A stretch of 64,000 bases of DNA. It comes from Verrucomicrobiia bacterium (GTDB taxonomy: Bacteria > Verrucomicrobiota > Verrucomicrobiia > Opitutales > Cerasicoccaceae). The notes beneath the pieces were generated by a model that did no database searches, was not told where the DNA came from, and was given only the letters and a program-made list of their open reading frames with translations. Location of the stretch: positions 682,001 through 746,000 of the forward strand of contig JAUIHT010000001.1 in assembly GCA_030432235.1 (NCBI GenBank), written 5' to 3'. Made by a program: the position numbers and the translations under genes. Of the stretch, positions 32,214 to 46,983 are shown piece after piece (position 1 is the stretch's first letter; each line of letters begins with the position of its first letter).

Positions 32214-32726
32214 TTAATCCGTTTGATGCAGAATCTGTTGGTAAAGCCCTTTGCTAAAGAGTTTGCCTTCGGTAATTTGATTTAAGGAATGCCTCATACC
32301 CTCGACGCGTTGCAGACGAATAAGCAGGATATCCTCGATGTTTTTTCTTTTGGTCGCCTTAGCCGCCGCGAAAGCGCAGTCCAGCACTGCCTCCTGATAT
32401 GCGAGCAGGCGTCGGCAGCAACTGACGATGGAAACATCCTTGATGTTGTTGGTGGGCAGATTGGCAAGTATCTCGCGCCCTTGCCGGACGATGCCCTCCG
32501 CAGCGTAGCAACTATTGCCGAAAGTATCCTCACGGAGAATGGTAAAGATGGCGAAGATGTCCTCTTGGGACTCCGCGTTGTCTTTATGAAAACTTTCCAG
32601 AAAAGCTTTCATGCCGGGAAATTGCGCGGCGTTAACCAATTCTTTCAGAAATGGCCCCAGTAGGACTTCGGCATGGTATAGGTCCCGTAAGTCCGATACC
32701 ATCTGACACTGTAGAGATTTTAGCAT
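32214..32726 (-). CDS. YciE/YciF-like (DUF892) ferritin-like protein
   Basis: This 170-residue protein opens with SDLRDLYHAEVLLGPFLKELVNAA, a divergent version of the DUF892 start, followed by helices with FHKDNAESQEDIF, a CCRRLLAYQEAVLDCAFAAA segment, and an ending (LNQITEGKLFSKGLY) parallel to the DGGLFSEGIHAQ ending of the other YciF protein in this window. It is therefore a distant paralogue of 28354-28857. Several iron-ligand positions seem altered, so metal binding is uncertain. It is transcribed alone on the minus strand and ends the stress-gene region just before the biosynthetic cluster. Confidence 0.8.
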   Translation of the reverse strand: MLKSLQCQMVSDLRDLYHAEVLLGPFLKELVNAAQFPGMKAFLESFHKDNAESQEDIFAIFTILREDTFGNSCYAAEGIVRQGREILANLPTNNIKDVSIVSCCRRLLAYQEAVLDCAFAAAKATKRKNIEDILLIRLQRVEGMRHSLNQITEGKLFSKGLYQQILHQTD

Positions 32727-32937: not shown

Positions 32938-33678
32938 ATGTCAGCACGGAAACCACACGCTCAGATCGAAAAATATTACGGGGATGAGGCCGGAAAGCAG
33001 CAGTACCTGCGCTCGCTGTTTGATTTGGCTGCGCCCTACTATGAAGGCATTGCCAAGTGGGGCTGGCTGGGCACGGGAGGACGCTATCGTGTTTGGGCGC
33101 TCAAGCGTGCCGGGCTGAAGCCGGGCATGCGCCTGCTGGATGTTGCCGCGGGTACCGGGCCGACTGCCCGCGCGGCGGCGGAGATTTTGGGCTCCGCCGA
33201 CGGCATTACCTGCCTGGAGCCCTCCGCGGGCATGATTGCTGAGGCACGCAAGACGCTGTCTTGCACCTTCGTCCAGGCGGGCGCCGACGACATGCCGCTC
33301 CCGTCCGGTGAGTTCGACTTTCTCAGCATGGGCTTCGCCTTGCGTCATGTGGAAGACCTGCGTGGCGCCTTCTCGGAGTTCATTCGGGTACTCAAACCGG
33401 GCGGCAAGGCACTCATCCTGGATGAAACCGTGCCCAAGCGCGGGTTGCGCCGGTTTTTCATGAAGCTGTATTTCAAACATGTCCTGCCGGCGTTCACACG
33501 TATGTTTACACGCAGTCGGCCCGCGCAGGAGATGATGGACTACTACTGGGAAACGCTTGAGCGGATGGTAGAGCCCGAGGTGGTGCTTCAGGCCATGCGC
33601 GAGGCGGGTTTCACGGAGGTGAGACATCACCTTATCGCGGGCATGTTCAGCGAGTATTCGGGCATCAAGGCCTCTTGA
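32938..33678 (+). CDS. Class I SAM-dependent methyltransferase (UbiE-like)
   Basis: The 246-residue product has the Rossmann-type methyltransferase motifs: motif I LLDVAAGTGPT (residues 66-76), acidic LEPSAGMIAEAR, motif II FDFLSMGFALRHVEDL and motif III VLKPGGKALILDE. Overall it resembles UbiE/MenG quinone methyltransferases. The ATG at 32938 is preferred; the frame continues upstream to 32785, but that stretch does not look protein-like. Methyltransferases in aryl polyene clusters O- or C-methylate the aromatic head group, and location beside the chorismatase/ACP/ketosynthase operon suggests this role. Its 3' end overlaps by 14 bases the convergent lipoprotein gene. Confidence 0.82.
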   Translation: MSARKPHAQIEKYYGDEAGKQQYLRSLFDLAAPYYEGIAKWGWLGTGGRYRVWALKRAGLKPGMRLLDVAAGTGPTARAAAEILGSADGITCLEPSAGMIAEARKTLSCTFVQAGADDMPLPSGEFDFLSMGFALRHVEDLRGAFSEFIRVLKPGGKALILDETVPKRGLRRFFMKLYFKHVLPAFTRMFTRSRPAQEMMDYYWETLERMVEPEVVLQAMREAGFTEVRHHLIAGMFSEYSGIKAS

Positions 33679-34210
33679 GGGCGAGGGCGTGGATGGCATC
33701 CAACGCTTCGGCGATGTTATCACGAATGGCATTGGCGGAACCTGCGTTGCGGTTGCTGCCGGCCAAGCCTGTCACGCCACCCTGGGCGACGGTGATGATG
33801 TTCTGGCTCCAGAGGATTTTCCCGGAGTGTAAATCGATAAGGCGCCAGTACATCTCGGTTTCCGTCTCGGAACTGAGAGAAAAGAGGGCCTGGTTTTTGC
33901 GAACGAGCGAGGCGTAGAGCAGGTAATCGGCATTCGCCTTATCAGGCACAACCGGCGCGAAGAGGTTCGCGGCAAGTATTGAATGTTCGATGGCCTCGCG
34001 CAGCTCCGTATCGGAAACCTCCATGACGGCAGCCTCTCCGCTGTTGTCGCCGACTTGCACGGTGACGGACCCCAGAGGCTGCGCTTGATAGTCTACCTGT
34101 GCAACCTGCATGGACTCCGATGTAGTCGTGCAGCCCGTCAGCCAGGCGCTGATCAGGAAGAGCCCGAGCCGGTAAAGGTTTTTGCGCGGCTGGCTAGAAG
34201 CGGTACTCAT
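33665..34210 (-). CDS. Lipoprotein of unknown function, second gene of a lipoprotein pair
   Basis: A 181-residue protein starting at the ATG at 34210, with a lipoprotein signal (LYRLGLFLISAWLTGC, acylated Cys27). The mature part has a SDTELREAIEHSILAANLF helix, a YLLYASLVRKNQALFSLSSE strand pair and ETEMYWRLIDLHSGKILWSQN, a pattern of periplasmic lipoproteins that assemble with, or present, envelope components. I cannot name the family. It overlaps the upstream lipoprotein gene by 17 bases, and the pair is divergent from the biosynthetic operon. A role in anchoring or moving the polyene product at the outer membrane is inference only. Confidence 0.78.
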   Translation of the reverse strand: MSTASSQPRKNLYRLGLFLISAWLTGCTTTSESMQVAQVDYQAQPLGSVTVQVGDNSGEAAVMEVSDTELREAIEHSILAANLFAPVVPDKANADYLLYASLVRKNQALFSLSSETETEMYWRLIDLHSGKILWSQNIITVAQGGVTGLAGSNRNAGSANAIRDNIAEALDAIHALALKRP

Positions 34211-34793
34211 CGTTATATTGTGAGCTGCCTTGCTTGCCGCGACGGATGGTCTTCGTTTCCTCCTCGGGGATTTCCACGACGAGCGAAGGGTCCACCTCAT
34301 CGTAGATTTCATTAAGAGTTTCGTTGATCATATAGGTGGGCGGTTTGCGAATCGCGGAGGTGCGGTAGGACTCTCCAGAGGCCAGCAAATCTCCGCCGGG
34401 GGTCTTCATTTGAATATTCAGGCGGATCATATACATCGTCATGTCCCACATCCAGCGGTCCTGATAGGTCACCACGACATCGGTGTTTTCCGGGGCTTGG
34501 CCGGCCTCACCGGTGGCGGCCTTGAGCCCGCGTTCGCGCAGGCAATCGACAATCCGCTCATTGATTCCGCGGCCATCCTGGGGCAGCTGCTCCACGTAGT
34601 AATTGCCGCGCACGGCAAAGACTGGCGCATCGGCAGGGGCGGACTCGCCGACGGCGGTACTGATTTGTGTCCCCGGCACGACGGAGCCCTTCTGATGCCC
34701 CAGGCAACCGCCCAGCAGGAACAGGGGGATGAGCCACAGTGGGCATGAGTAACGGTGGAGTTTTTTTGGCAAGACGGATAAGTATGGGGACAT
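34194..34793 (-). CDS. Lipoprotein of unknown function, first gene of a lipoprotein pair
   Basis: A 199-residue protein from the ATG at 34793, with a signal peptide ending in LFLLGGC (Cys30). The mature domain includes FAVRGNYYVEQLPQDGRG, ERIVDCLRERGLKAATGE, DVVVTYQDRWMWDMTMYMIRL and LLASGESYRTSAIRKPP. This arrangement, a small alpha/beta domain followed by strands with an aromatic DRWMWDM stretch, recalls ABC-type auxiliary or DUF4136-like lipoproteins, but identity is not certain. It shares an 81-base divergent promoter region with the operon beginning at 34875, suggesting co-regulation with the biosynthetic genes. Confidence 0.78.
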   Translation of the reverse strand: MSPYLSVLPKKLHRYSCPLWLIPLFLLGGCLGHQKGSVVPGTQISTAVGESAPADAPVFAVRGNYYVEQLPQDGRGINERIVDCLRERGLKAATGEAGQAPENTDVVVTYQDRWMWDMTMYMIRLNIQMKTPGGDLLASGESYRTSAIRKPPTYMINETLNEIYDEVDPSLVVEIPEEETKTIRRGKQGSSQYNDEYRF

Positions 34794-34798
34794 CGTGT

Positions 34799-34829
34799 TT
34801 GAACTTTTTCGCCAAAGGCATTTTATGTA
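34799..34829 (+). promoter_or_regulatory. Possible promoter of the aryl polyene operon
   Basis: TTGAAC (34799-34804) and TATGTA (34824-34829) are separated by 19 bases in the gap upstream of the first plus-strand gene. The spacing is long for sigma-70-type promoters, so this is tentative. The same gap must hold the divergent lipoprotein promoter. Confidence 0.3.
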
Positions 34830-34874
34830 AACGGTGAAATCCGTATTTTCCCAATCCTCACTAAAAAACACACT

Positions 34875-35297
34875 ATGAAAATTACCCTGCCAATCTTCAG
34901 TCTCCTGCTCATCCTGGTTGCCTTCCAGGGCTGCGAATCGACCAAGGGCCTCTCCGCATCGACCAGCTACAACGAAGCGCCGCTGACCGTGGAAGTGCCC
35001 GCGGGCATGAGCAGTGCCGACGTGCAGAAAGCCATGGGAGCGACTTTTGCCGGCCGCCAGTGGACCGTGACCGATACCACTGGAGACAGTATGACGGCGA
35101 TTCTGAATCACCGGGGCTATCAGGCCAAGGCCACCATGGTGCGCAGCGGCAATACCATCCGCATTCTCAGCGAATCGAAGATGCTGGACAGCAAGACTGA
35201 TGAATACGTCCCCGCCGTGCCACTTGGCTGGTTGCAGAACCTGCAGAAGGACCTCCGTAAGCGTTTGTCCCAGGCAGCTTACACCGATTTTCAATAA
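34875..35297 (+). CDS. Lipoprotein of unknown function at the head of the aryl polyene operon
   Basis: A 140-residue protein with a lipoprotein signal (ITLPIFSLLLILVAFQGC, Cys20). The mature domain is a compact alpha/beta fold (SADVQKAMGATFAGRQWTVT, then DSMTAILNHRGYQAKATMV, then NTIRILSES, and a C-terminal helix), resembling small periplasmic domains of unknown function. It ends 9 bases before the chorismatase start and so is likely the first gene of the operon. A function in product handling at the envelope is inferred from position; no catalytic motif is seen. Confidence 0.78.
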   Translation: MKITLPIFSLLLILVAFQGCESTKGLSASTSYNEAPLTVEVPAGMSSADVQKAMGATFAGRQWTVTDTTGDSMTAILNHRGYQAKATMVRSGNTIRILSESKMLDSKTDEYVPAVPLGWLQNLQKDLRKRLSQAAYTDFQ

Positions 35298-35306
35298 TCC
35301 TGATTC

Positions 35307-36242
35307 ATGGCGGTTGAGCTCAGATACGGCGCACAGACCGCAGGCTGGCGGACAACGTCCGGTGGCCTGACACTGATGGTGCCCGTACCTGTGCTGGCGG
35401 GGGCGGAGTCGGGTATTTTGCTGCCGGGCGATGTTATCCTGCACGAGGAAGCCCCGGATTGCGTTCATGCCGAGACTGCCTGTGGTCATTTCGTCGCACT
35501 GAAAATGCCGATCGCGCAGGATCTGGCGGCGACGAGCGAGCGTCTCTACGACTCGCTTCTGACCAAGCTTGATGGGCTCTCACTATTGCGCATCTGGAAT
35601 TTCGTGCCCGCCATTAACATGGGTGAGGGCGAGGCGGAAAACTATCAGCGGTTTTGCACGGGGCGCGCACGCGGCTTTGCCGGTCGTGGAGTGCCGCTGG
35701 GGGCGTATCCGGCGGCCTCGGCGGTGGGATGCCAGGGCGACGCTCTGCTGACCTTCGCCGTGGCCACGACGGAGCCGGAGCCCATTCATTTCGAGAATCC
35801 GCTTCAGGTGCCTGCTTTTCATTATCCCAAGGAATACGGCCCCGACGCCCCCGCGTTTTCCCGTGCGACTGCCTGCGGGCTGGCCGACGGCGCGTTGTTT
35901 GTCTCGGGGACGGCTTCAGTACGCGGGCATCTCACCGTGCATCCCGGTGAATTGGCGGGGCAGCTGACAGTGACGGCGGAAAACCTGCGGGCTATTCTGG
36001 GGGCTGCCAAACGCGCCCCGGGGGGCGGTGAGCCGTCCTGGTGCTGCGCCTATGTGCGTCGAGCCGAGGACGCTGCTCCGGTGGAGGACTGGCTGCGTGC
36101 ACAAGGGTGGGCGAGGCTCGGGCGTTACACGCTGGTGCAGTCGGACATTTGCCGGAAAGACCTGATGGTGGAAGTGGAGCTGTCCTGGTCGCCGGGGCGT
36201 ACTGCCTGCCAGCCCGATGCGCTGGAGGCCGCGCGGGGATGA
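35307..36242 (+). CDS. Chorismatase, FkbO/Hyg5/XanB2 family (hydroxybenzoate-forming)
   Basis: This 311-residue protein matches chorismatases throughout: LYDSLLTKLDGLSLLRIWNF, then NYQRFCTGRARGF, PAASAVGCQGD, FENPLQVPAFHYPKEYGP, SRATACGLADGALFVSGTASVRGH and a C-terminal VQSDICRKDLMVEVELSW. Cys282 and Glu289 have the same seven-residue spacing as Cys327 and Glu334 of Hyg5, where the cysteine favours 3-hydroxybenzoate formation. Chorismatases split chorismate; the XanB2 type gives 3- and 4-hydroxybenzoate, and 3-hydroxybenzoate starts xanthomonadin synthesis in Xanthomonas. The gene overlaps the next by ATGA. This replaces the ammonia-lyase route of other aryl polyene clusters. Product type is inferred, not shown. 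Confidence 0.87.
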   Translation: MAVELRYGAQTAGWRTTSGGLTLMVPVPVLAGAESGILLPGDVILHEEAPDCVHAETACGHFVALKMPIAQDLAATSERLYDSLLTKLDGLSLLRIWNFVPAINMGEGEAENYQRFCTGRARGFAGRGVPLGAYPAASAVGCQGDALLTFAVATTEPEPIHFENPLQVPAFHYPKEYGPDAPAFSRATACGLADGALFVSGTASVRGHLTVHPGELAGQLTVTAENLRAILGAAKRAPGGGEPSWCCAYVRRAEDAAPVEDWLRAQGWARLGRYTLVQSDICRKDLMVEVELSWSPGRTACQPDALEAARG

Positions 36243-37513
36243 AGCATTACGATTGCCTGATCCTAGGGGGCGGTCCGGCGGGCGCGACCACGGCGGCCTG
36301 TCTGGCCAAGGGTGGGTTATCCGTCTGCCTGGTGGAAAAAGACGCCTTTCCGCGCTTTCACATCGGCGAGTCCCTCCTGCCCGCGGGCAACGAAATCCTG
36401 CAGGAGATCGGGGCCTGGGAGCGTATCGAAGCGGCAGGTTTTGTGCTGAAGCGCGGGGCGGAGTTCACCTGCGGTAATGGCAGCCGGACCGTGCGCATCG
36501 ATTTTCGCAAGGGTTTGGACCCGGCCCTCGGATACACTTGGCAGGTGCGCCGGGCGGAGTTCGATACCATCCTTCTCGACAATGCGCGCTCGCTGGGATG
36601 TGACGTGCGTCAGCCCGCGCGTATCGTTGCGCTGGAGCAAACGCCGGAGGGCTGGCAAGCCCGGCTGTCATCCGATGCGGGCGAGGAGAGCGTCAGCGCG
36701 GCCTGGCTTGTCGACGCAGGTGGGCGCGGTCGTTTTCTGGGCACGCGCCTGGGCCTGGAAATGCAGGCGGTGCCGCTGCCCAAGCGTTTCTCTGTTTACA
36801 GTCACTTTCGTGGCGTACAGCGGCGTAAGGGCGACCTGTCGGGCATTATCACGATTGTACGCATCCCCGACGGCTGGTTCTGGTCCATTCCGATTTCCGA
36901 GGAAGAGACTTCCGTCGGCTGGGTGGCCACGCGCGACAGTCTGGGAAAAAAATCGCCCGCCGAGGCCTTCGACGCTGCCGTTCGCGCACACCCGTTCATG
37001 GCGCAATGGATGGAGCGGGCTGAGAGGCAGCGTCCCTTCGTGGTGGAGTCGGACTATTCGTTCCTGTACCGGCACTGGGCCGGGGAGCGTTGGTTGTTGG
37101 CAGGGGATTCCGCTGGCTTCATCGATCCGGTCTTTTCCTCCGGTGTCTATCTGGCTCTCAAGAGCGGGCGTGAGGCTGCGCGGGTAATCCTGCGCGCCGG
37201 TGCTGACGGGCGCCTGTCTCGCGCGCAGCAGCGTGCCTATACGCGTTCCGGCATGGTACCTCTGCGGACGATGTTGAGCCTCGTGCGGGCGTTTTATCAC
37301 CCGCGTGATTTTTCGATCTTCATGCACCCGAAGGACGTTTTCTCGGTCGTCTCTGCGGTCAACTCCGTGGTGGCGGGGCGCGCGGATCTGCCTTTCCCAT
37401 TGTGGTGGCGCTTCCAGTTTTTCCTCCTGCTCTGCCGGCTCAACCGGGCTCTGCCGATTGCCCCGCGCCTGTCGTTAGGGGTGAACCCAGACAATGCACG
37501 GTTGACGAATTAG
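36239..37513 (+). CDS. Flavin-dependent halogenase-like FAD oxidoreductase
   Basis: This 424-residue enzyme has the FAD-binding GGGPAGAT near the N-terminus (10-17), the phenolic-halogenase-type FHIGESLLP (40-48), a lysine at the catalytic halogenase position (Lys71 in GFVLKRGAEF), the WxWxIP halogenase signature as WFWSIP (213-218), and FIDPVFSSG (294-302), matching the Fx.Px.Sx.G motif. These points favour a phenolic-type halogenase over a plain geranylgeranyl-reductase-like oxidase. Xanthomonadins are brominated aryl polyenes, so ring halogenation would fit. Flavin reductase is not encoded here and must be supplied elsewhere. It overlaps the chorismatase stop by ATGA. Halogenating activity is a strong inference, not proven. 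Confidence 0.8.
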   Translation: MKHYDCLILGGGPAGATTAACLAKGGLSVCLVEKDAFPRFHIGESLLPAGNEILQEIGAWERIEAAGFVLKRGAEFTCGNGSRTVRIDFRKGLDPALGYTWQVRRAEFDTILLDNARSLGCDVRQPARIVALEQTPEGWQARLSSDAGEESVSAAWLVDAGGRGRFLGTRLGLEMQAVPLPKRFSVYSHFRGVQRRKGDLSGIITIVRIPDGWFWSIPISEEETSVGWVATRDSLGKKSPAEAFDAAVRAHPFMAQWMERAERQRPFVVESDYSFLYRHWAGERWLLAGDSAGFIDPVFSSGVYLALKSGREAARVILRAGADGRLSRAQQRAYTRSGMVPLRTMLSLVRAFYHPRDFSIFMHPKDVFSVVSAVNSVVAGRADLPFPLWWRFQFFLLLCRLNRALPIAPRLSLGVNPDNARLTN

Positions 37514-37550
37514 GCGATTTTCTTAGCATCTTCCTATTTTTCATACGCTT

Positions 37551-37826
37551 ATGAGGGAACCGGATCTTAAACTACGCCTGAAGGTATTGCTCATTGAGGC
37601 CCTGGACCTCGAAGACATAAGCCCGGAGGAAATACCTGATGGCGAGCCCCTGATGGCATCCGGCCTAGGGCTGGACTCCATCGATGCGCTTGAGTTGGTA
37701 GTGCGCCTGGAGAAGGAATTCGGATTCAAAATCAAGAACAGTGAGGAAGCCCGCCAGGCCCTCGTTAATATCGATTCCCTCGCCGCCTTCATCGAAAGCA
37801 AAATGGCCGAAACGGCCGCCAACTGA
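37551..37826 (+). CDS. Acyl carrier protein
   Basis: A 91-residue four-helix carrier protein with the phosphopantetheine attachment site at Ser43 in SGLGLDSIDALELVVRLEKEF. It is acidic and starts at an ATG at 37551, 37 bases after the halogenase-like gene. In aryl polyene systems the aryl starter and the growing polyene are held on such carriers. Only one carrier is present here, as in xanthomonadin clusters (XanC), while enterobacterial clusters use two. It is followed 23 bases later by the ketosynthase gene. Confidence 0.93.
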   Translation: MREPDLKLRLKVLLIEALDLEDISPEEIPDGEPLMASGLGLDSIDALELVVRLEKEFGFKIKNSEEARQALVNIDSLAAFIESKMAETAAN

Positions 37827-37849
37827 ACCAACCGGAACGCGCTCGACCC

Positions 37850-39625
37850 ATGGCGCCCGTGACCGCCCTTATCGCCAGCGATTGTCTGACCCCGTTCGGG
37901 CACGCTGGAGATACCCTGTCGGCGCTGTGCCGGGGTGAGCGCGCACTGCAGATGCACCCGGTTTCCCCTGACTGCGAGGACAAGGTGCCGCTGGCATTGA
38001 TCCGTCCCCTTGAGGCTGAGGAGCCTGCTCGCTGGCTGGAGCCCTGCCGCGAATTGCTCCGGGGTGCGGAAGGCTATCCCTGGGGAAGGGCGCGTTACCC
38101 GGTCATCGTGACCAGCAGTAACTTTGGCATTGGCCAGCTCCTCGCTTACGCGCTTCGTGAACGGCAGGGGGATTTGTCCGCTGCCAGCCCTGAACGTGCG
38201 GTGGGTCAAATCGCACGCGCGCTGGAGTGGGGGCCGCACCGGATGATTCTCTCCAACGCCTGTGTTTCGGCGCAGCTCGGGCTCTTTCACGCCGCACGTA
38301 TGCTGTATGCGGACCTCGCCGACGCCGTGCTGGTGTTTTCCTTCGACTTTCTCAGTCCCTTCGTCGCGGGCGGCTTCCATTCGCTGAAGATACTCAACGA
38401 TGCCTGGCCCCAGCCCTATACCGAGTGCGAAGCGGGCTCCATCGGTCTCGGCGACGGTGCGGCCTACGCCATCCTGGGGCGTGCCGGAGAAAGTGAGTGG
38501 CAGCTCGGGCCGGGCGCCAATTTCAACGAGTGCTTCCACATGACCGGCAACGATCCTTCCGGCGACGGCTTCCGTCGCTGTTTTGGTTCCGTGGCGGAGG
38601 GCATTGAAGGGCGTAAGCTATGGGTGAAGGGCCATGGCACTGGTACCCAGGAGGCCGGCCATCTGGAAGCTCAGGCCGCGCTGGATGCATTCCCGGAGGC
38701 GCCGCTGGTTTCGTGGAAGGGCTCGCTGGGCCACACGTTGGGCTCCTGTGGACTGGTCGAGCTCGCCATCGCCCACGCAGGCATGCGGGCGGGCCGAATC
38801 CCCGGCAACATCGGCGGTGGTGATAAGGCGCTCAGTCCGCGCGTGCAGCGTGACGCTTTCGACGCAGCCCCTTACGATGGCGCGGTGCTGGTCAGCAGTG
38901 CCTTCGGTGGAGCCCATGCGGCTCAAGTGCTCCTGTGCGGCAAGCCGTTCAGGGAGCCCAGGCCGGCGCCGGTCTTGCGCCGCTATATCCATGCAGTCGA
39001 GGCCCTGGAGCCCGTCGAAACGCTCGACCCGGAGATGGTGCGGGCCTACCGGAAGAACTTTCCTGCCATGACGGCCCGCAAGCTGTCGCACTTGCCGCTT
39101 ATGCTCGGACAAGTGACGCGTGAGGCGGCCATCGGCCCGGATGACGAACTACTTTTCGTCTCTGAGTTTGGCGGGGTGCAGGCTCTGGAGAAATTCCTCG
39201 CTTCCTTCCCGGCCGCCTCGCCGATTGGTTTTCAGAACTCCACCCAGCCTGGGCCGGCATCGCTCGTCCTGGTGGCTCGGCGTCAGGCTGTTCGGCTCTT
39301 CACGCCGGTGGTTGGCGCGGATGGAATGGTCAACGCCCTGATGCTCGCGCTGCTGGCCGATCCGGGCCCGCTGCATCTGCTGGGCGGTGAGGAGCACGGT
39401 GCATGGTTGACCGAGGAGCAGCTTGGTTCGTCGAGCGCTTTTGCCTTTTACCTGAAACTTTCCGATGAGCCCGAAGGCGCGCTCGGAAGCCTGTCATGGT
39501 CACCTGGAGAGGCCGGGGAGAACGACCGTATGACGACCTCCGCCTTTACGTGTGCGGTGCTTGCGCGTCGCAATGCCACCATGGGAGCGCCGGGAGGGGG
39601 GCGGCTCGAACTGGCTTGGGCATGA
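37850..39625 (+). CDS. Ketosynthase fused to a C-terminal ketosynthase-like (CLF-like) domain
   Basis: The N-terminal 370 residues are a ketosynthase with a complete Cys-His-His triad: Cys138 (ILSNACVSAQLG), His262 (VKGHGTGTQEAG) and His295 (GSLGHTLGSCG). From about residue 385 the chain continues for 200 residues as a truncated ketosynthase-fold domain of the Ketoacyl-synt_2 type: MTARKLSHLPLMLGQ, then ELLFVSEFGGVQALEKFL, then SPIGFQNSTQPGPASLVLVA. That domain lacks an obvious catalytic cysteine and resembles chain-length-factor-like or accessory subunits encoded separately in other aryl polyene clusters. At 591 residues it is far longer than the usual 400-420. It would extend the hydroxybenzoyl starter with malonyl units. 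Its stop overlaps the next start by ATGA. Confidence 0.86.
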   Translation: MAPVTALIASDCLTPFGHAGDTLSALCRGERALQMHPVSPDCEDKVPLALIRPLEAEEPARWLEPCRELLRGAEGYPWGRARYPVIVTSSNFGIGQLLAYALRERQGDLSAASPERAVGQIARALEWGPHRMILSNACVSAQLGLFHAARMLYADLADAVLVFSFDFLSPFVAGGFHSLKILNDAWPQPYTECEAGSIGLGDGAAYAILGRAGESEWQLGPGANFNECFHMTGNDPSGDGFRRCFGSVAEGIEGRKLWVKGHGTGTQEAGHLEAQAALDAFPEAPLVSWKGSLGHTLGSCGLVELAIAHAGMRAGRIPGNIGGGDKALSPRVQRDAFDAAPYDGAVLVSSAFGGAHAAQVLLCGKPFREPRPAPVLRRYIHAVEALEPVETLDPEMVRAYRKNFPAMTARKLSHLPLMLGQVTREAAIGPDDELLFVSEFGGVQALEKFLASFPAASPIGFQNSTQPGPASLVLVARRQAVRLFTPVVGADGMVNALMLALLADPGPLHLLGGEEHGAWLTEEQLGSSSAFAFYLKLSDEPEGALGSLSWSPGEAGENDRMTTSAFTCAVLARRNATMGAPGGGRLELAWA

Positions 39626-40524
39626 GCGGGCAACGGCAGCGTAATCCGGGGCCGGACTGGGGTTTTGGCTGCCTGCGGTGGCTGTGCCGGACGCTGCCTC
39701 TGCCGATTTTGTATTTCTTGACCGTGATCGGCTCGACGGTGGCCTGGGCGGTCATGCACGAGTCGCGCCGGGCCTCCCGCGAATACCTGACGGCGTTGCA
39801 CTGTCGTCCGCCAACGACTTGCGAGAGCCTTCGGCAGTTTATCGCTTTTACCTGGGTCATGCTGGCCAAACTACGCGCGGGCGAGGGCGCTCCGGTCCAC
39901 TTCGATTGGGATTCGCCGGAGGACTCCCAGCATCACGACCTGCTTTTCGGCCCCGAGCAACTGCTGCTGGGTACCTTTCACGTTGGCGGCTCGGAGTTTC
40001 TTGGCTTTCACGGTCTGACGGAATCCCGCGATATCGCCATGGTGCGCCAGCGCCGGGATAACGCTGGCGACATTGAGGCGCTGACCGAGAGCCTGCGCGG
40101 CAAGTTGCACATCGTGTGGACTCAGAGCGGAGAGTCCGTCATTTTTCCCCTGCGCGACCTGCTGGCGGACGGCTACTCGCTGGCGATGCAGTGCGACCGT
40201 GCCGAGGACGCCTCGAAGACGGCGGTGTTTGAATTCCTCGGGGCTCGGCGGCGGCTGCCGGTGACGATTTATCGTCTGGCTTTACTCTACGGGCTGCCGG
40301 TGTGCTTCTGCGTGGCGATTCCGGAAAAGGACCCCATGCGGATGCGCGTAAAGGTGTTCCCGCCATTTCGTTCGCCGTCCGGAGCCACGCGCCGTGTCGG
40401 CATGGAGGCTGCGCGGGCGCATTTCCAAAGCGTCCTGGTCTGGCTCGAGGGCATTCTGCGGGCGCACCCGAGTCTGTGGTTCAACTTTATCCCCCTTCAG
40501 CGCCTTGCGCCGACGGATTCATGA
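39622..40524 (+). CDS. LpxL/HtrB-like lipid A type acyltransferase
   Basis: A 300-residue protein with an N-terminal hydrophobic segment (about 22-45), then the LpxL-type acyltransferase domain: GTFHVGGSEFLGFHG holds the HX4E catalytic pair His120/Glu125, followed by MVRQRRDNAGDIEAL and a DRAEDASKTAVFEFLGARR stretch. Family members acylate lipid A precursors at the cytoplasmic face of the inner membrane; homologues are regular members of aryl polyene clusters, where they help attach the polyene to a lipid. The ATG at 39622 overlaps the ketosynthase stop (ATGA). It may transfer the polyene to a glycolipid acceptor. Confidence 0.85.
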   Translation: MSGQRQRNPGPDWGFGCLRWLCRTLPLPILYFLTVIGSTVAWAVMHESRRASREYLTALHCRPPTTCESLRQFIAFTWVMLAKLRAGEGAPVHFDWDSPEDSQHHDLLFGPEQLLLGTFHVGGSEFLGFHGLTESRDIAMVRQRRDNAGDIEALTESLRGKLHIVWTQSGESVIFPLRDLLADGYSLAMQCDRAEDASKTAVFEFLGARRRLPVTIYRLALLYGLPVCFCVAIPEKDPMRMRVKVFPPFRSPSGATRRVGMEAARAHFQSVLVWLEGILRAHPSLWFNFIPLQRLAPTDS

Positions 40525-41318
40525 CAAGCACGTCCCCAGACGATGGCATCCGGGCCGGTTGGCGTTACCCGTTGTACATCGGGCTGGTGTGCTTCTACGC
40601 GCTGCTCATGCTGCTGCTTAACGGCGCCTGCGCGCTCTCCGCTTTGTTTCCGCATCGCGAACGTCGCTCGGGCGCGATTCAATGGCTGGCCGCGTGCTTT
40701 GCGCGCATGCTCCGCACCGCGATCGAGTGGAGCACGGTGGGTCGCGTTTACTGCGAGTCTCTGGGAAAATTGCCCGACGAGCCCTGCGTCATCGTGGCCA
40801 ACCATACCGGCATGCTTGACGCTATTCTACTGCTTACCGAATGGCCTGGCCTCGCTCTGGTTTTCAAGCGGCAGTTGCGGCGTAGTCCGTTCTACCGCTA
40901 CCTCGTCACCGAGCCCGGCTTCATCGGCAATGACGAGGGCCTGGCGCTGCTGCGGGAAGGCTGTCGCATGCTCGGGAGTGGGCGCTCTCTTCTGATCTTT
41001 CCCGAGGGAACGCGCACCGAGCGCGTTCCGGTCAACGCCTTCTATGGCGGCTTTGCCGCGGTGGCGCGCCGGGCCGGAGTGCCCATCCAGACCGTGCTGA
41101 TTGAAAACCCGTCCTGGGTGCTGGGCAAGGGGCGCGGGTTTTTCAGTCGCTACACATTTCCCTTCGACTATCGCTATCGGCTGGGAGAGCGTTTCGTGTC
41201 GGAGCCGGGCGAGGACAGTCATGCATTGACGGCCCGCGTCGAAAGCTATTTCCAACAGAACCTTTCCCACCTGACCGAGCCCCCATGGCGCGCACACTTC
41301 AGCAAGATTTCATCGTGA
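40521..41318 (+). CDS. PlsC-like 1-acylglycerol-3-phosphate type acyltransferase
   Basis: The 265-residue product has one N-terminal transmembrane helix (about 16-43) and the PlsC motifs HX4D (NHTGMLD, His95/Asp100) and FPEGTRT (160-166), with a YGGFAAVARRAGVPIQTV block for acceptor binding. PlsC-type enzymes acylate glycerophospholipid or related acceptors. Aryl polyene clusters typically carry such an acyltransferase beside an LpxL-like one, consistent with the final product being lipid-anchored. It overlaps the previous stop by ATGA, and its 3' end overlaps the following dehydratase gene by 34 bases. Confidence 0.85.
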   Translation: MTSTSPDDGIRAGWRYPLYIGLVCFYALLMLLLNGACALSALFPHRERRSGAIQWLAACFARMLRTAIEWSTVGRVYCESLGKLPDEPCVIVANHTGMLDAILLLTEWPGLALVFKRQLRRSPFYRYLVTEPGFIGNDEGLALLREGCRMLGSGRSLLIFPEGTRTERVPVNAFYGGFAAVARRAGVPIQTVLIENPSWVLGKGRGFFSRYTFPFDYRYRLGERFVSEPGEDSHALTARVESYFQQNLSHLTEPPWRAHFSKISS

Positions 41319-41605
41319 CCGAGGCAACGGGCTTTTGTGCCGGGCATTTCCCGGGGCATCCCATTGTGCCGGCAGCGGTGCAGCTCCAGTGGCTGGTGGC
41401 GTTGGCTCAGCGGCATCAACTCGGCCTGGACGGCTACGAGGTGAAGAATTTGAAACTCCTGCAGGAGTTGCCACCCGGGACTTCCGTCCGACTCGAGTTG
41501 GTCGAAACCGCCCGTGGCTGGCAGGGGACCGTACGCGGCGAAGCGGGCGAAATCTATGCGCGCTGCCGGTTCGATTTTCACCCACCGCAAGCAGCCGCCG
41601 ATTGA
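41285..41605 (+). CDS. ApeI-like hotdog 3-hydroxyacyl-ACP dehydratase
   Basis: A 106-residue single hotdog-domain protein. The motif AGHFPGHPIVPAAVQLQWLV (residues 19-38, catalytic His21) is the FabA/FabZ-type dehydratase signature in the form found in ApeI family members of aryl polyene clusters. A second strand pair (VKNLKLLQELPPG, then EIYARCRFDF) completes the fold. Dehydratases remove water from the 3-hydroxyacyl intermediate and so create each conjugated double bond. It pairs with the ApeP-like protein encoded at 45242-45649. The gene overlaps the acyltransferase by 34 bases and the glycosyltransferase by one base (TGATG). Confidence 0.82.
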   Translation: MARTLQQDFIVTEATGFCAGHFPGHPIVPAAVQLQWLVALAQRHQLGLDGYEVKNLKLLQELPPGTSVRLELVETARGWQGTVRGEAGEIYARCRFDFHPPQAAAD

Positions 41606-42369
41606 TGGACATGCACCGCAGCCACGTGGTCGTTATCCCGTCCTACAACACCGGGCGCATCTTGCAGAGAACGGTTCGCGAGGCGCTGGCCCGGTGGCAA
41701 CCGGTCTGGCTGTTCATCGACGGTTCCACGGACGAGGCACATCGCTGCTTCCTGGACGAGCCGTTAGCCTGGCCTGGCCTGCGCGTGTTCGTGAGCGAGG
41801 AGAATCGAGGCAAGGGCGCGACCGCGTTCTTGGCTGCCGAGGAAGCTGCCCGCGCGGGGTACACCCATATGCTTTTGATGGACGCCGACGGCCAGCACCC
41901 ACCGGAGTCCATCGTGCCCTTTATGCAAGCCTCTATCGACACCCCTGAAGCCATGGTGCTGGGGCAGCCGGTTTTCGGGCCGGAAGCTCCCTGGGTGCGT
42001 TTGGCAGGCCGCCAATTGAGCGTGGGCATGGTCTGGCTGGAAACCCTCGGCGGCGGCATCGGCGATCCGCTGATGGGCTTTCGTGTTTACCCTGTCGAGC
42101 CCCTGCGGGCGGTGGCGGCGCGGACCCGCTTCGCGCGGCGTTACGATTTTGACCCCGAAGTGGCGGTGCGTTTGTTCTGGGAAGGTGTGCCGCCGTTGCG
42201 CTTACCCGTGCCCGTGCGCTATGTTGCGCCGGAGGAGGGCGGGGTGAGTCACTTTCATTATCTGCGCGATAACCTCTTCATGATTTGGTTGCACCTGCGT
42301 TTGCTGCTGGCTTTCCTGCCAAGATGCTTGCGCGTGGCGAAATTCAGCCGCCGGTGTCGCGCCCGATGA
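41605..42369 (+). CDS. Family 2 glycosyltransferase
   Basis: A 254-residue GT2 (GT-A fold) enzyme: HVVVIPSYNTGRILQRTV at the nucleotide-binding start, LFIDGSTDEA, ENRGKGATAFLAAEEA, and the DXD-like metal site LLMDADGQHPPESI (Asp93/Asp95), then GDPLMGFRVYP. One short C-terminal hydrophobic segment follows (FMIWLHLRLLLAFL), suggesting membrane association. Glycosyltransferases of this type occur in aryl polyene clusters and may build the sugar part of the lipid anchor or decorate the head group. The ATG at 41605 shares a base with the previous stop; an ATG six bases later is an alternative. Confidence 0.85.
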   Translation: MDMHRSHVVVIPSYNTGRILQRTVREALARWQPVWLFIDGSTDEAHRCFLDEPLAWPGLRVFVSEENRGKGATAFLAAEEAARAGYTHMLLMDADGQHPPESIVPFMQASIDTPEAMVLGQPVFGPEAPWVRLAGRQLSVGMVWLETLGGGIGDPLMGFRVYPVEPLRAVAARTRFARRYDFDPEVAVRLFWEGVPPLRLPVPVRYVAPEEGGVSHFHYLRDNLFMIWLHLRLLLAFLPRCLRVAKFSRRCRAR

Positions 42370-42956
42370 TCGGGGGGCGGCTGTTGGTTCTACTGGTACT
42401 CATGGCCGGATGGGCTGAGCCCTTGCGGTCGGAGGAGCCTTCGCTGGACGACTGGCTGGCGCGTCTCACGCCGCCCCCGGCGGAGAGCCTGCCGCTCACC
42501 ATTCCCTTCAAGGAAGCGCGCACCTATCCCTTTCGGAAATACCCCAAGGATTTCTCCGGTAAAATAATCCTCGAAGCGAACGGCGACGTACGCGTCGACT
42601 ATGCGTTTCCCTCTGCTTATCGGCTGGTACTTACGGACGGTGGCGCGCGCCTGGAAGAGCCGGGAGGCGACACGCGGGACCTGGGCAATCCGCCCGGCCT
42701 GGCGTTGTTGCGTTCGCTCATGCGCTGGGATGTGCCCGGTATCGAGCGCGCTTGGGATTTGACCTCAGCCGCCGAGAGCGATGGTGCAACCATACTTGAG
42801 CTCGCCCCCGCTGATGCACGCTTCGCCGAAAAGGTGAGCAGCCTGACTATTGTCTTTCGCCCTGAACGCGTCACCGGCGTCACGGTGAAGCAGACCGACG
42901 GTCAGCAGCGCGATTATCAATTCGCGCCGCCGGTCGACGCAAGCGCGGCCCCATGA
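42366..42956 (+). CDS. LolA-like outer-membrane lipoprotein carrier protein
   Basis: A 196-residue periplasmic protein with a signal peptide (RLLVLLVLMAGWAEPLRSEE). The mature part has the LolA-type half-barrel pattern: FKEARTYPFRKYPKDFSGKII, VRVDYAFPSAYRLVLTDGG, then SSLTIVFRPERVTGVTVKQTD. LolA shuttles lipoproteins between membranes; cluster-encoded versions are a consistent feature of aryl polyene loci and are thought to carry the lipidated polyene toward the outer membrane with the MMPL protein. It overlaps its neighbours on both sides by ATGA, placing it in the transport part of the operon. Confidence 0.8.
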   Translation: MIGGRLLVLLVLMAGWAEPLRSEEPSLDDWLARLTPPPAESLPLTIPFKEARTYPFRKYPKDFSGKIILEANGDVRVDYAFPSAYRLVLTDGGARLEEPGGDTRDLGNPPGLALLRSLMRWDVPGIERAWDLTSAAESDGATILELAPADARFAEKVSSLTIVFRPERVTGVTVKQTDGQQRDYQFAPPVDASAAP

Positions 42957-45223
42957 GTTTACCCAGGAAAAATGTGATCGCGTTGTTGGCGCTGCTGGGG
43001 GTGCCGCTGGTCGGGCTGTTTTTCTTCAAGCTTCCCGAGCGCATTTCCACCGACCTGCTCGACCTCGCGCCGGCGGCCTCGCTGGATAACGCAGAAGCGC
43101 AGGCTATGCGTGCCGCCAATCAGGTGATCGCGCGGCAAGTCTTCGTGGGCATGGAGGGCTTCGCCGATGCGGAGGAACGCACGCAGGCCGCATCGTGGCT
43201 GGACGATTTCACCGCAGGCAACGCGGTCTTTTCGCACGTCTACGTACCGGGGCGGGCACAGCTCCCCGGCGACCTCCTGGCGGTCCTGCAGCGGGAGAAG
43301 CTCGCACTGCTCCTCCCGGGCTGGTTGGAACGCCGCCGCGCGGAGTTCGCCAAGGATGCGCCGGACGAGCCTTTTGTCGAGTGGCTTGCGCAATCGCAGG
43401 CTCGTGTACTCGACCGTTTTTTGGAAAGCCCCTACGCAGCACAGTACGCCGATGGAGTCACGCAGGACCCGCTGCTCCTGCTGCCTGACGCCGCCCAGGT
43501 GATGAAGGAAAGCGGGACCGCGCTGCAGGCTGAGGCCACGGACGACTCAACGCTGCTGGCCTGGCTCGGGCTGACCCTCAATCCGCTCGATACGGACGAC
43601 CAGGCACGCATCACCGAGGCGGTGGCTACACTCGAGACCCAGTTGGCCGAGGCCTTTCCCAACTGTGCGGTGACGACCGCGGGGGTCTACGCGGTCGCGC
43701 AGGAATCATCTTCCGCCGCAGCCGGGGAAGTCATGCGGCTCAACATCATGACGGCTCTGGCCGTGCTGGTCTTGCTGGGATTGTTCCTGCGGCGCTGGCG
43801 GAGCCTGCTCATCCTGCTGCTGCCGGTGAGCGCCGCTTTGCTCTGGGCTCTGTTCGCGGGCCTGTTGTTTTTCGAGCGCATCCATGTCTTCGCCCTCGGG
43901 ATGAGCTCCGTGCTGCTCGGGCTGGCAGTGGACTACGGCATCCACGCGGAGATGCATCGATTGACCGAGTCCGGCGCGGGCACGCTGTGGGCCAAGGTAC
44001 GCAAGCCGCTGCTGGCTGGTTGCCTCTCGACCTGCCTGGGCTTCCTCGTTCTGTTGGAAGCGCCCATCCTGGCGCTGCGGCAGGTCGGGGTATTGGTGCC
44101 TGCCGGTTTGCTCGGTGCGCTGGTCATGGTTTACCTGCTCTATCGTGCGCTTGGGCCGGTGGCGCAAAAGCCACCGCGCGCGCTCTCTCTGCGGTTGCCG
44201 GACATTCCCCGATGGGTGACGTTTGGCTTCTTTGGCGTGACCGGCTTGCTGGCGCTCTTTGTGGTCGTGACCCATTTCGCCCGACAGGATGGCATCAACG
44301 ACTATCAGTTGGCCGGCGGGCCGGCCAAGCAGCGCTTTACGGCCATGTTGGAAAAGCTACAGATCAAGGACGTCGGACCGCGTTGGGTACTCTTTGCGGA
44401 AGATCCGGCGGAACTTTTGGAGGCATTGCAAAAACTGCCCACGGGCACATTTCCCTTTGCAGATGTCATCCAGCCGGGACGTGAGCCTGGTCTCACTCCC
44501 GGGGAGCGCCAAGCCTTTGCGCAGGCTTTTGCCCGGGCGCTCGAGGAGGAAGGCTTCGACGCAGCATCCTTCGCGGGTTTTCTTGATGAGCTGGATGAGA
44601 CGCCCGCGCCGGATGCGTTTCCTCAGGCCCTGCAGGCGCTGTCGCAGGCACTGCCGGGGCCGCTCGGCCTGACCCTGGGTTATGAGGACGGCCTCTTCTT
44701 CGCGGTTGTCAGTGCGCCGGAGTCCGTCGTAAACGAGGCCGGAGTGCCGGTCGTGCGACTGGCTGAGCAGGCCCGGCTGGACTCCCTGCTGGCGCGTGCC
44801 AGCGACACGCTTATGCGGCAGTGCCTATGGGGCTGGCTGGTCATCGTGGTCATTCTGCTGGTGGTCTTTGGACTGCGTGACGGATTGGTCGCGGGCTTGT
44901 TGCCAGCTTGGGCCGGACTCTGTGGTGTGGCCTGGCAACTGGCCTTGCTGGGCAGCCTCAGTCTGATGGGCTGGATCGGACTCATCCTCGCGTATTGTCT
45001 GGCGTTGGATTACAGCGCTTTTGCCAGTGTGGAGAAGGAGCGGCCTCTGGCCTCCGTGCGGCTGTCGGCACTGACCACGGTGGCGGCCTTCGGAATCCTG
45101 GGCAGCAGTGCTATTCCGGCTTTGCAAACCCTTGGGCTGGCGGTTGCCTCCGCAATAGTGACCGCGGTCGTCGGCGTGGAGCTTTTCCAGGCACGGCGTG
45201 AGACGGCTTGCCCCCGAGCGTAA
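42953..45223 (+). CDS. MMPL/RND family exporter
   Basis: This 756-residue membrane protein has the RND-like duplicated plan: an N-terminal helix (VIALLALLGVPLVGLFFFKL), a large periplasmic domain, a five-helix block around residues 262-405 (LLILLLPVSAALLWALFAG, SSVLLGLAVDYGIHAEMH), then a second periplasmic domain and helix block (about 625-740; GLILAYCLALDYSAFASVEKE, which corresponds to the conserved aspartate-tyrosine motif). MMPL proteins export lipids or polyketides by proton-motive force. The family is a hallmark of aryl polyene clusters. It is coupled to the LolA-like gene by ATGA, supporting a shared transport function. Confidence 0.88.
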   Translation: MSLPRKNVIALLALLGVPLVGLFFFKLPERISTDLLDLAPAASLDNAEAQAMRAANQVIARQVFVGMEGFADAEERTQAASWLDDFTAGNAVFSHVYVPGRAQLPGDLLAVLQREKLALLLPGWLERRRAEFAKDAPDEPFVEWLAQSQARVLDRFLESPYAAQYADGVTQDPLLLLPDAAQVMKESGTALQAEATDDSTLLAWLGLTLNPLDTDDQARITEAVATLETQLAEAFPNCAVTTAGVYAVAQESSSAAAGEVMRLNIMTALAVLVLLGLFLRRWRSLLILLLPVSAALLWALFAGLLFFERIHVFALGMSSVLLGLAVDYGIHAEMHRLTESGAGTLWAKVRKPLLAGCLSTCLGFLVLLEAPILALRQVGVLVPAGLLGALVMVYLLYRALGPVAQKPPRALSLRLPDIPRWVTFGFFGVTGLLALFVVVTHFARQDGINDYQLAGGPAKQRFTAMLEKLQIKDVGPRWVLFAEDPAELLEALQKLPTGTFPFADVIQPGREPGLTPGERQAFAQAFARALEEEGFDAASFAGFLDELDETPAPDAFPQALQALSQALPGPLGLTLGYEDGLFFAVVSAPESVVNEAGVPVVRLAEQARLDSLLARASDTLMRQCLWGWLVIVVILLVVFGLRDGLVAGLLPAWAGLCGVAWQLALLGSLSLMGWIGLILAYCLALDYSAFASVEKERPLASVRLSALTTVAAFGILGSSAIPALQTLGLAVASAIVTAVVGVELFQARRETACPRA

Positions 45224-45241
45224 ATAGCCAAGACTGCGGGG

Positions 45242-45649
45242 ATGGCTTTTCCGCCGCCCAGTGAGATTTTGCCACATGCTCCCCCCATGGTGCTGCTCGA
45301 TGCCGTGCTCGAAGCAACGCCTGAGCGGGCGCGGGCAAGGCTTTGCCTCTCGCCGGAGGCACCACAGGTCGAGGACGATGGCGCGGCGGTGTCGTGGGCC
45401 CTGGAAATCCTCGCACAGACTGCCGCGTTCATCATCGTAGGGGAGGGGAGCAGTACGTTCCGTCAGGGGCGGCTCATCCATGTGAAGCGTTTCCATGCGC
45501 ATGTGGCCTCGTTGCCCGCGTCGGTTGTGCTCGAATCCCAAGTGACCTTGGACGCGGGCAGTGATTCCGGCGTTTTCCTTTTTCACGGTCAACTTAGCCT
45601 GGAGGACAAGGTGCTGGCCTCGGCCGAACTCACGCTCTTTGCCTCATGA
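45242..45649 (+). CDS. ApeP-like hotdog 3-hydroxyacyl-ACP dehydratase
   Basis: A 135-residue hotdog protein beginning ILPHAPPMVLLDAVLEA (His12), close to the LPHRPPMLLLD start of ApeP/FabZ-like dehydratases from aryl polyene clusters. It has a long central helix WALEILAQTAAFIIVGEG and a final strand pair including VFLFHGQLSLEDKV. In characterised systems ApeI and ApeP act together as the dehydratase that forms the polyene double bonds. It lies 18 bases after the exporter gene and overlaps the AMP-ligase start by ATGA. Confidence 0.82.
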   Translation: MAFPPPSEILPHAPPMVLLDAVLEATPERARARLCLSPEAPQVEDDGAAVSWALEILAQTAAFIIVGEGSSTFRQGRLIHVKRFHAHVASLPASVVLESQVTLDAGSDSGVFLFHGQLSLEDKVLASAELTLFAS

Positions 45650-46983
45650 GCCGAAGAGGAGAAGCGGCGCAGGCGGTATCACCGTTGCTTGAGGCTTGGC
45701 GGGCAACATGTCGTCGCAAGCCCGCTGCTCTCGCGGTGACAGTGCCGGCGGAAAACCGTGATGTGACTTTTGCCCAACTCGATGGAGAGGCCACTCGTTT
45801 ACGCACGGCATTGGCCTCGTTTCGCTTGGAGCGCCGGGCGGTGGTCCTGCATTTGCCGAACAGCCCGGAGTGGTTGGTGACTTTTCTGGCTTTACGGAGT
45901 TTGGGCGCACTGGTCATCGCCGTAGACGATGCGATTACGCCGGAGCGGGTGCACGAAGTCGCGCGGCATTTTAAGGCTGCGGGTATTTACGGTCCCGAGG
46001 GCTTTGTGCCGCAAGCGTCTCCGGCGCGTCGCTGGAAGTCAGGCTGCGCTCTGGTGAAGCTGACCTCCGGCACGAGTGGTACGCCTAAGGGTATTGTTTT
46101 TACCGATGCGGAAATGCTGGCCGACGCGGGTAATATTCTCGCGACGATGGGCATCGGTGAAACCGACCGGAATTTCTGCCTGCATCCGCTGGGGCATTCC
46201 TATGCCTTGGGAAGTATCGTTTATCCTTTGCTGGGATTCGGCGTGCCTGTGGCTATCGGTAGTGCTCCCCTGCCGGGCGTTCTCGCTGACGAGCTGCATG
46301 CCGCCCAGGCGACGGTACTGCCAACGGTTCCGGCGGTGCTGGAGATTCTTGGCAAGTCGACCGTCGAGAGCTTGGCGCCGCTGCGCCTAGTTATCTCCGC
46401 TGCCGCACCGTTAAGGCCGGAGCTGGCCCGGGCATTTTTAGAAAAGTTCTGCTTGCATGTGCACAACTTCTACGGGTCGTCGGAGACCGGCGGCATTGCC
46501 TATGACGTTACCGGGGAGGCAGGCCTGAGCAGCGATGCCTTGGGCGCGCCTCTGCGTAACGTGTCACTCTCACTGAGCCCTGGTGGGCGTCTGTGCGTCC
46601 GTAGCCTGGCGGTCAGCCACTATGGACGCCGGATGTCCGTTCACGCACCCGTCACCTGCCAGTTGGCCGATCGTGCCCAGCTCGAGGGAGGCCTGCTGAC
46701 ACTCTTGGGCCGGACTGATCGAACGGTCAAACTGGCTGGTCGCCGCGTGAACCTCGATACGCTGGAGCAGTCTCTAGCGGCCGGAAATCCCGGCGCGCGT
46801 TTGGCTGCCTTCCTGCGTGGAGACAACCTGTGCGTGGCGGTGGAACGTGATACGGTCGACATCGCGTTGTTTCAATCAACTGTTCGCGAACTTGCTCCCG
46901 GCAGGAGCCGCATTATCGCCCTTAAAAAGTTACCGAGGACTGGCCGTGGAAAGATCGACCAAGCGGCATTAAACAACCTCTAA
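45646..46983 (+). CDS. Aryl-acid AMP-ligase (acyl-CoA synthetase family, ACP loading)
   Basis: This 445-residue ANL-superfamily adenylating enzyme has the P-loop TSGTSGTPKG (140-149), YGSSETGG (276-283) and the C-terminal catalytic lysine Lys436 in GRGKID. It is shorter than most acyl-CoA synthetases, as are the AMP-ligases of aryl polyene clusters. Its likely task is to adenylate the hydroxybenzoate made by the chorismatase and load it on the carrier protein, like ApeH or the XanA2 3-hydroxybenzoate ligase. The ATG at 45646 overlaps the previous stop. It is the last gene of the operon. Confidence 0.87.
   Translation: MSRRGEAAQAVSPLLEAWRATCRRKPAALAVTVPAENRDVTFAQLDGEATRLRTALASFRLERRAVVLHLPNSPEWLVTFLALRSLGALVIAVDDAITPERVHEVARHFKAAGIYGPEGFVPQASPARRWKSGCALVKLTSGTSGTPKGIVFTDAEMLADAGNILATMGIGETDRNFCLHPLGHSYALGSIVYPLLGFGVPVAIGSAPLPGVLADELHAAQATVLPTVPAVLEILGKSTVESLAPLRLVISAAAPLRPELARAFLEKFCLHVHNFYGSSETGGIAYDVTGEAGLSSDALGAPLRNVSLSLSPGGRLCVRSLAVSHYGRRMSVHAPVTCQLADRAQLEGGLLTLLGRTDRTVKLAGRRVNLDTLEQSLAAGNPGARLAAFLRGDNLCVAVERDTVDIALFQSTVRELAPGRSRIIALKKLPRTGRGKIDQAALNNL

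Follow-up and report, generated by a model that had tools for sequence, protein, structure and literature searches.

The 64,000-nucleotide stretch of DNA analyzed here, called the window below (G000:C37:682001-746000, from a 5.72-Mb, 42-contig genome of the order Opitutales), carries a real, order-wide aryl polyene (APE) operon that is primed by a chorismatase, and the absence of a ketoreductase gene from it is the part worth following. The operon probably makes a hydroxybenzoate-primed aryl polyene that is moved to the cell envelope; that it is an APE operon primed by the chorismatase product is well supported. An earlier, sequence-only reading had proposed a xanthomonadin-type cluster at this place, and all of the operon genes that it named were located where it had put them by Pfam, NCBIfam, Protein Data Bank (PDB) and profile searches. 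It took this list of parts to define APE clusters; the other parts are present, but the absence of the ketoreductase had been overlooked.

The elongation enzyme is central to the APE assignment. Its ketosynthase (KS) part has the ApeO-type chains 7F28_B and 6QSP_A as its best PDB sequence matches, and a profile of the following part, an ApeC-type half-KS chain length factor (CLF), matches the partner chains 7F28_A and 6QSP_B (E = 6e-4 and 2e-3). The 6QSP entry is titled as ApeO in complex with ApeC, and 7F28 we take to be the ApeO-ApeC enzyme of Acinetobacter. For a model of the CLF half (mean pLDDT 91), the top three Foldseek hits were 6qsp_B, 7f28_C and 7f28_A (E = 2.5e-9 to 1e-7, TM 0.57-0.66). 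The two dehydratases match, as profiles, chains A and B of one entry, 6QSR, presumably the ApeI:ApeP pair, and the AMP-ligase, acyltransferases, glycosyltransferase, LolA-like carrier and MMPL exporter of APE clusters are all there. Two observations weigh against the assignment. Several NCBIfam scores are low, at 99.9 against a cut-off of 407 for the KS (best NF006618) and 158.6 against 325 bits for the chorismatase (TIGR04444, E = 2e-46), and when the whole fused model (mean pLDDT 77) served as the Foldseek query, FabF-type KSs and the PfaC KS-CLF ranked among or above ApeO; this AlphaFold2 model is poor in the CLF half. No position could be matched with Q166, the glutamine of the Lysobacter CLF.

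The proposed starter enzyme is a chorismatase of the FkbO/Hyg5 family, which exceeds the cut-off of PF21168 and matches PDB chains of that family with a best E of 1e-37. Its residues E289, C282 and G201 correspond to E334, C327 and G240 of Hyg5 (numbering by alignment and PMC7170507; here and below, statements on published work follow excerpts of the cited papers), and all three are invariant in the 102 distinct aligned homologues from the fetched loci. The family match and the conserved catalytic Glu and Cys support the hydroxybenzoate starter that had been predicted. At position 139, where Hyg5 has Gly, the window enzyme has Ala, and so do 94/102 homologues overall (Gly in seven, Cys in one) and 16 of the 17 proteobacterial chorismatase homologues inspected; this suggests, but does not prove, a subtype that is ArcB/XanB2-like rather than Hyg5-like, in a comparison with Hyg5 and these homologues. 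In Azoarcus, ArcB makes 3-hydroxybenzoate (3-HBA) and ArcT activates it (PMC3949708). The nearest chorismatases among named relatives belong to Cerasicoccus species and to Opitutales and Verrucomicrobiota metagenome-assembled genomes, in agreement with the Verrucomicrobiota lineage read earlier from the sequence.

The genes form a packed unit at 34875-46983, in which 13 plus-strand genes, from LP3 to the ligase, are separated by intergenic gaps of -34 to +37 bases; a UbiE-type methyltransferase gene (plus strand) and the lipoprotein genes LP1 and LP2 (minus strand) lie upstream of it. The lipoproteins once described simply as upstream are therefore present, but LP1 and LP2 are on the minus strand and LP3 opens the packed unit at 34875. 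The features are as follows.

32938-33678, plus strand: MT, UbiE-type S-adenosylmethionine methyltransferase (PF01209, E = 5e-25)
33665-34210, minus strand: LP1, lipoprotein with a lipobox, weakly GNA1162-like (PF05643, 18.9 bits against a cut-off of 25.9), putative link to the pathway
34194-34793, minus strand: LP2, lipoprotein, no Pfam match
34875-35297, plus strand: LP3, small lipoprotein that opens the packed unit, nine bases from the chorismatase gene, no Pfam match
35307-36242, plus strand: CHOR, FkbO/Hyg5-family chorismatase, starter-unit enzyme (PF21168, TIGR04444, PDB matches)
36239-37513, plus strand: HAL, flavin-dependent halogenase-like enzyme (PF04820, PDB halogenases, motifs)
37551-37826, plus strand: acyl carrier protein, ACP (PF00550; best NCBIfam NF006617, 64.8 bits against a cut-off of 70)
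37850-39625, plus strand: KS-CLF, 591 residues, ApeO-like KS (residues 1-361) and ApeC-like CLF (about 372-591) (PDB sequence, profile, Foldseek)
39622-40524, plus strand: AT1, LpxL-type acyltransferase (PF03279, Lip_A_acyltrans, in 8 of 11 aligned homologues)
40521-41318, plus strand: AT2, PlsC-type acyltransferase (PF01553, E = 1e-15)
41285-41605, plus strand: DH1, ApeI-like hotdog dehydratase (profile; 3esi, E = 4e-11; 6QSR chain A, E = 1e-9)
41605-42369, plus strand: GT2, glycosyltransferase (PF00535, E = 5e-12)
42366-42956, plus strand: LolA-like carrier (profile to PDB LolA chains, best E = 4e-7; NF053544 LolA2_flexi, 19.3 bits against a cut-off of 125)
42953-45223, plus strand: MMPL-type exporter (PF03176, E = 5.5e-9)
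45242-45649, plus strand: DH2, ApeP-like hotdog dehydratase (profile; best PDB match 6QSR chain B, E = 8e-12)
45646-46983, plus strand: LIG, AMP-forming ligase for the aryl starter (PF00501, E = 3e-42)

As several single-sequence scores fall below the family cut-offs, profiles of relatives were used. Pfam cut-offs are passed by the ACP, the PlsC-type acyltransferase, GT2, the MMPL protein and the AMP-binding ligase. For DH1, DH2 and the LolA-like protein no single-sequence match exceeded any cut-off (DH2 reaches 19.4 bits against the ApeP-like PF22817, cut-off 27), and their identities come from the profiles; AT1 itself gave no Pfam match and no convincing match in a PDB sequence search. The LolA-like and MMPL genes bear out the envelope-type export genes that had been noted. 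A scan for promoters and terminators found no excess over shuffled sequences (2 vs 3.0; 14 vs 16.0).

The core is shared well beyond this genome. The order ACP-KS-CLF-AT1-AT2-DH1-GT2-LolA-MMPL-DH2-ligase is the same in 8/9 other genomes of the family, so the gene grouping is not a matter of chance; KS and CLF are adjacent genes in 8/9, and the ninth genome, G008, has neither. GT2 is the best conserved gene of the operon, at 64-76% within the family. Across the order, the KS was found in 37 of 177 sampled genomes (E <= 1e-30), the chorismatase in 47 (E <= 0.001; 41 over the cut-off) and the halogenase in 26 (E <= 1e-60). KS and chorismatase occur together in 36 of the 37 KS genomes (Fisher p = 5e-31) and KS and halogenase in 25 of the 26 halogenase genomes (p = 3e-20), both values uncorrected for relatedness; all 26 halogenase genomes also have the chorismatase. 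Outside the family, 16 genomes have the halogenase; its gene is at most 5 kb from the KS in 11 of them and on a different contig in four, and in G116 the two are about 60 kb apart. Many of the loci compared are 20 kb long or cut by contig ends, and the chorismatase loci are the best 80 of 265 confirmed places; the chorismatase is found in 44/49 distinct cores, a biased count because most cores were entered through the chorismatase search. The pairing of chorismatase and halogenase, previously held to be specific to the xanthomonadin branch of Xanthomonas, does not have that specificity: the pair occurs across this order, and the literature also describes it for Azoarcus and other beta-proteobacteria (PMC3949708). 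Clusters with a chorismatase start and a halogenase are common in one Verrucomicrobiota order, and the type is confined neither to Xanthomonas nor even to proteobacteria.

In some genera the block MT-LP3-chorismatase-halogenase is linked to the core; in the Cerasicoccus genus, for which G001 and G002 were examined, the block and the core are on different contigs. Homologues of LP3 occupy the equivalent position in several relatives, L033 (= L055, Cerasicoccus arenae) has an LP2 homologue (44%) beside its methyltransferase gene, and the methyltransferase adjoins the chorismatase or halogenase gene in that locus, in L041, L057 and L162, and likewise in some proteobacterial loci (L067, L103, L115); methylation of the aryl head is its probable function. 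The cluster has a GC content of 63.5%, against 54.2% for the rest of the window. A recent horizontal import need not be invoked for this jump, as the core is present in 8/9 other family genomes and cluster GC equals or exceeds that of the flanks in 8/8 family loci. Some relatives carry extra genes between halogenase and ACP (L153 10249-12588, L018 6055-6633, L024 5722-6745); one or more of the following are encoded there: another ACP-like protein, an additional KS, and a small membrane protein resembling TVP38 by inspection. In L165 (G008:C57), from the family member that lacks the APE KS, halogenase-like, ACP and ligase genes stand beside a KS of just 26% identity, perhaps a diverged or different cluster. 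Published antiSMASH results include arylpolyene regions in Opitutales strain ASA1 (PMC10927696, PMC12193912) and in Oceaniferula (PMC9865893). A literature search with most subscription journals outside its reach found no paper that mentions both xanthomonadin and Opitutales; among those that mention both xanthomonadin and Verrucomicrobiota, PMC11968836 has xanthomonadin in its reference list alone.

A single ketosynthase had been described in the operon; the KS is there, but its open reading frame (ORF) also holds the ApeC-like CLF. Such a fusion occurs in 2/56 distinct pairs, the window and G116 (644 residues, in a single-contig genome of another family), whereas KS and CLF are separate ORFs in the other 54, including 8/8 other pairs of the family. 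With so few fusions, and one genome for the window's genus, a sequencing or assembly artefact has to be considered. We judge it improbable, given the second fusion in single-contig G116 and the lack of a nearby stop in any frame at the junction, unlike a simple one-base error: the next stops lie at 39069 and 39121 in the two other frames, so that a single indel would not give back an ordinary KS and CLF pair. The fusion as such is not new. PfaC (PDB 6riw), presumably a polyunsaturated fatty acid synthase, has a natural KS-CLF didomain and is the third-ranked Foldseek hit of the fused model; it is a larger two-part enzyme of another pathway, with low alignment quality (TMt 0.37).

The halogenase-like enzyme has flavin-dependent halogenase motifs, with GxGxxG at 10, K71 and WFWSIP at 213, which we take to be the FAD motif, the catalytic Lys and the halogenase motif (WxWxIP), respectively. 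Its PF04820 match exceeds the cut-off (E = 1.7e-26), its PDB matches include ChlB4, PltA and CmlS (E = 1e-46 or better), and in the alignments K71 stands opposite the Lys of both ChlB4 and 8zop. Halogenation of the product is nevertheless just a possibility, because the Azoarcus cluster combines a halogenase gene, arcA, with a polyene described as non-brominated (PMC3949708). That precedent lends weight to the alternative that the flavoenzyme hydroxylates or otherwise oxidizes its substrate and that the aryl polyene is not halogenated, as does the identity of just 30-34% to the halogenase-like proteins of proteobacterial APE loci, which are no closer than unrelated solved halogenases. The alternative must contend with the conservation of the Lys and of WxWxIP in the window enzyme and in all 21 relatives at >=37% identity, and we consider it a serious possibility that falls slightly short of evenly balanced. 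A second gene of the Trp_halogenase family, of about 520 residues, stands beside the halogenase gene in other Opitutales APE clusters (L149, L151-L155, L157, L159 and others) and is absent from the window operon.

No dedicated ketoreductase (ApeQ, ArcH or ORF13) accompanies these genes: the window and 28 other loci gave no hit in a motif scan for short-chain dehydrogenases/reductases (SDRs), a scan that recognized 5/6 known SDR loci of this genome and can miss some. By BLAST with the genome's FabG, a weakly FabG-like gene lies in the roughly 20-kb locus of one of the 49 distinct cores (L083, 35%, 107 bits). Such genes occur above 120 bits in 10 of the 22 proteobacterial-titled chorismatase loci and weakly in one more, compared with three weak cases in the 58 others. 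Work on Acinetobacter and Lysobacter indicates that a dedicated ketoreductase is needed, yet 48/49 distinct cores are without one nearby; either FabG, with suitable partners, does the work, or there is a reductase yet to be recognized.

Among the genome's 29 SDR hits, one, beside FabF, exceeds the FabG cut-off. In a comparison of 26 of them (three weak ones omitted; 4/20 omitted in G005), just FabG, L054 and L177 had reciprocal best hits in all four of G005, G002, G007 and G008. None of the 26 tracks the APE genes, as all three conserved SDRs also occur in G008, a genome without the APE KS. The genome's FabG is its closest SDR to all 10 proteobacterial APE-locus reductases, and from these comparisons our best guess is that the canonical FabG would act in trans. 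We put forward, tentatively and with slightly less than even confidence, an Opitutales APE synthase that lacks any ApeQ-type ketoreductase, in which the chain is reduced by the housekeeping FabG, the pigment is wired into fatty acid synthesis, and ApeO and ApeC are fused in this genus. Several points speak against such a role for FabG. It has the canonical Phe and a full lid, whereas in 10/10 proteobacterial reductases Ile or Val stands in place of the Phe and the lid is two to three residues shorter, which fits the published difference between ApeQ and FabG (Leu185/Phe183, shorter lid; PMC8041823); this reading of the hallmarks is coarse, with lid length readable in 8/26 SDRs. The FabG of A. 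baumannii could not replace ApeQ in vitro (PMC8041823), and deletion of the ketoreductase gene ORF13 abolished the Lysobacter pigment (PMC3691225).

The same pathway could instead use a dedicated reductase encoded elsewhere, either another SDR, for example L054 or L177, or an unrecognized enzyme. The number of SDRs in the genome, the conservation of L054 and L177 in the four relatives and the existence of split clusters make room for this, both the unlinked Cerasicoccus-type MT-chorismatase-halogenase block and the two unlinked arc loci of Azoarcus (PMC3949708) being examples; but the conserved SDRs do not follow the APE KS, and no SDR clearly shows both reductase hallmarks in the set with eight readable lids. 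We hold a reductase encoded elsewhere to be a real possibility, although one that we lean against. An aryl polyketide product with its keto groups wholly or partly unreduced, in place of a polyene, would fit the 48/49 cores without a reductase gene, but it is very improbable, as the ApeI/ApeP-type dehydratases are kept. Dehydratases of the FabA/FabZ type need beta-hydroxyacyl substrates. Several loci from more distant genomes gave no DH1 or no DH2 match at a threshold of E 1e-4, so this dehydratase argument is weaker outside the family.

Four other KSs were found in the genome by profile search. One of them, in L171 (8850-11074, G000:C39), follows an ACP-FabA fusion and is 49-54% identical to KSs beside other Opitutales APE cores; the fusion and the KS are present in 10/10 family genomes at 60-82% identity. 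This KS was not assigned as an ApeR equivalent, since these genomes include G008. A full-length polyene is reported with ApeO-ApeC alone (PMC8358021), so the missing ApeR presents no problem for the operon.

In the pathway that we propose, the chorismatase would form 3-hydroxybenzoate, perhaps together with 4-hydroxybenzoate, which the AMP-ligase would load onto the ACP and the fused KS-CLF would extend with malonyl units. The keto groups would be reduced by an enzyme from outside the operon, most likely the single canonical FabG, and DH1 and DH2 would then dehydrate the chain, giving a conjugated polyene. The aryl head would be modified by the UbiE-type methyltransferase and perhaps also by the halogenase, and the acyltransferases, GT2, LolA-like carrier and MMPL protein would attach and export the product. 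By analogy with the protective yellow aryl polyenes of other bacteria, this product may be a colored, lipid-anchored pigment that protects against light and oxidation.

Other genes surround the cluster. Just upstream, on the minus strand (27879-29103 and 32214-32726), are stress-type genes for a DUF2383 protein, two DUF892 (YciE-like) proteins and a Pmp3 proteolipid. A response regulator with a Fis-type helix-turn-helix (29681-30292, minus strand) lies back to back with a histidine kinase (RsbRD_N; 30394-31662, plus strand), a pair that is a possible regulator of the neighborhood. Directly 3' of the operon, two large ORFs (47478-52369), one with a weak CBM9-like end and one without a Pfam match, have a GC content below that of the operon and are probably carbohydrate-related.

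Xanthomonadin-type products are brominated or methoxylated aryl octaenes. The Xanthomonas xanthomonadin and Lysobacter enzymogenes systems share with the window operon a 3-HBA-forming enzyme (XanB2 and ORF5, respectively; a predicted activity in the window), a KS with an ApeC-like partner (ORF17/16), an ACP, two dehydratases, a glycosyltransferase and a LolA-like protein (PMC3691225). Lysobacter needs the ketoreductase ORF13, which has no counterpart in the window operon. A halogenase is present in Xanthomonas, compared here by description, and in the window, and there is none in the Lysobacter cluster as excerpted (PMC3691225); a halogenase is thus not a strict requirement of the xanthomonadin-type branch. 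The arcuflavin (arc) genes of Azoarcus sp. BH72 resemble the window in having the chorismatase gene arcB beside the halogenase gene arcA, a KS and half-KS (arcK, arcJ), an ACP, dehydratases, acyltransferases, a glycosyltransferase, LolA, an exporter, an AMP-ligase and a methyltransferase, and in that the genes can be divided over two loci (PMC3949708). They differ in having a reductase gene, arcH, and separate genes for KS and partner, in contrast to the reductase-free window operon with its fused KS-CLF; Azoarcus also features a dialkylresorcinol cluster (PMC3949708), genes of a kind not searched for in this genome. With the ape clusters of E. coli, Xenorhabdus and Acinetobacter the operon shares the ApeO-ApeC elongation enzyme, the ApeI/ApeP dehydratases, ligase, acyltransferases, LolA and exporter (PMC8253772, PMC8358021, PMC8041823). 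It differs from them, as they are described in these excerpts, by lacking ApeQ and ApeR, by having one ACP rather than two and by its chorismatase-derived starter. ApeO and ApeC are separate proteins in the ape systems and fused in the window, and this one-chain version of the heterodimer would be useful for structural work.

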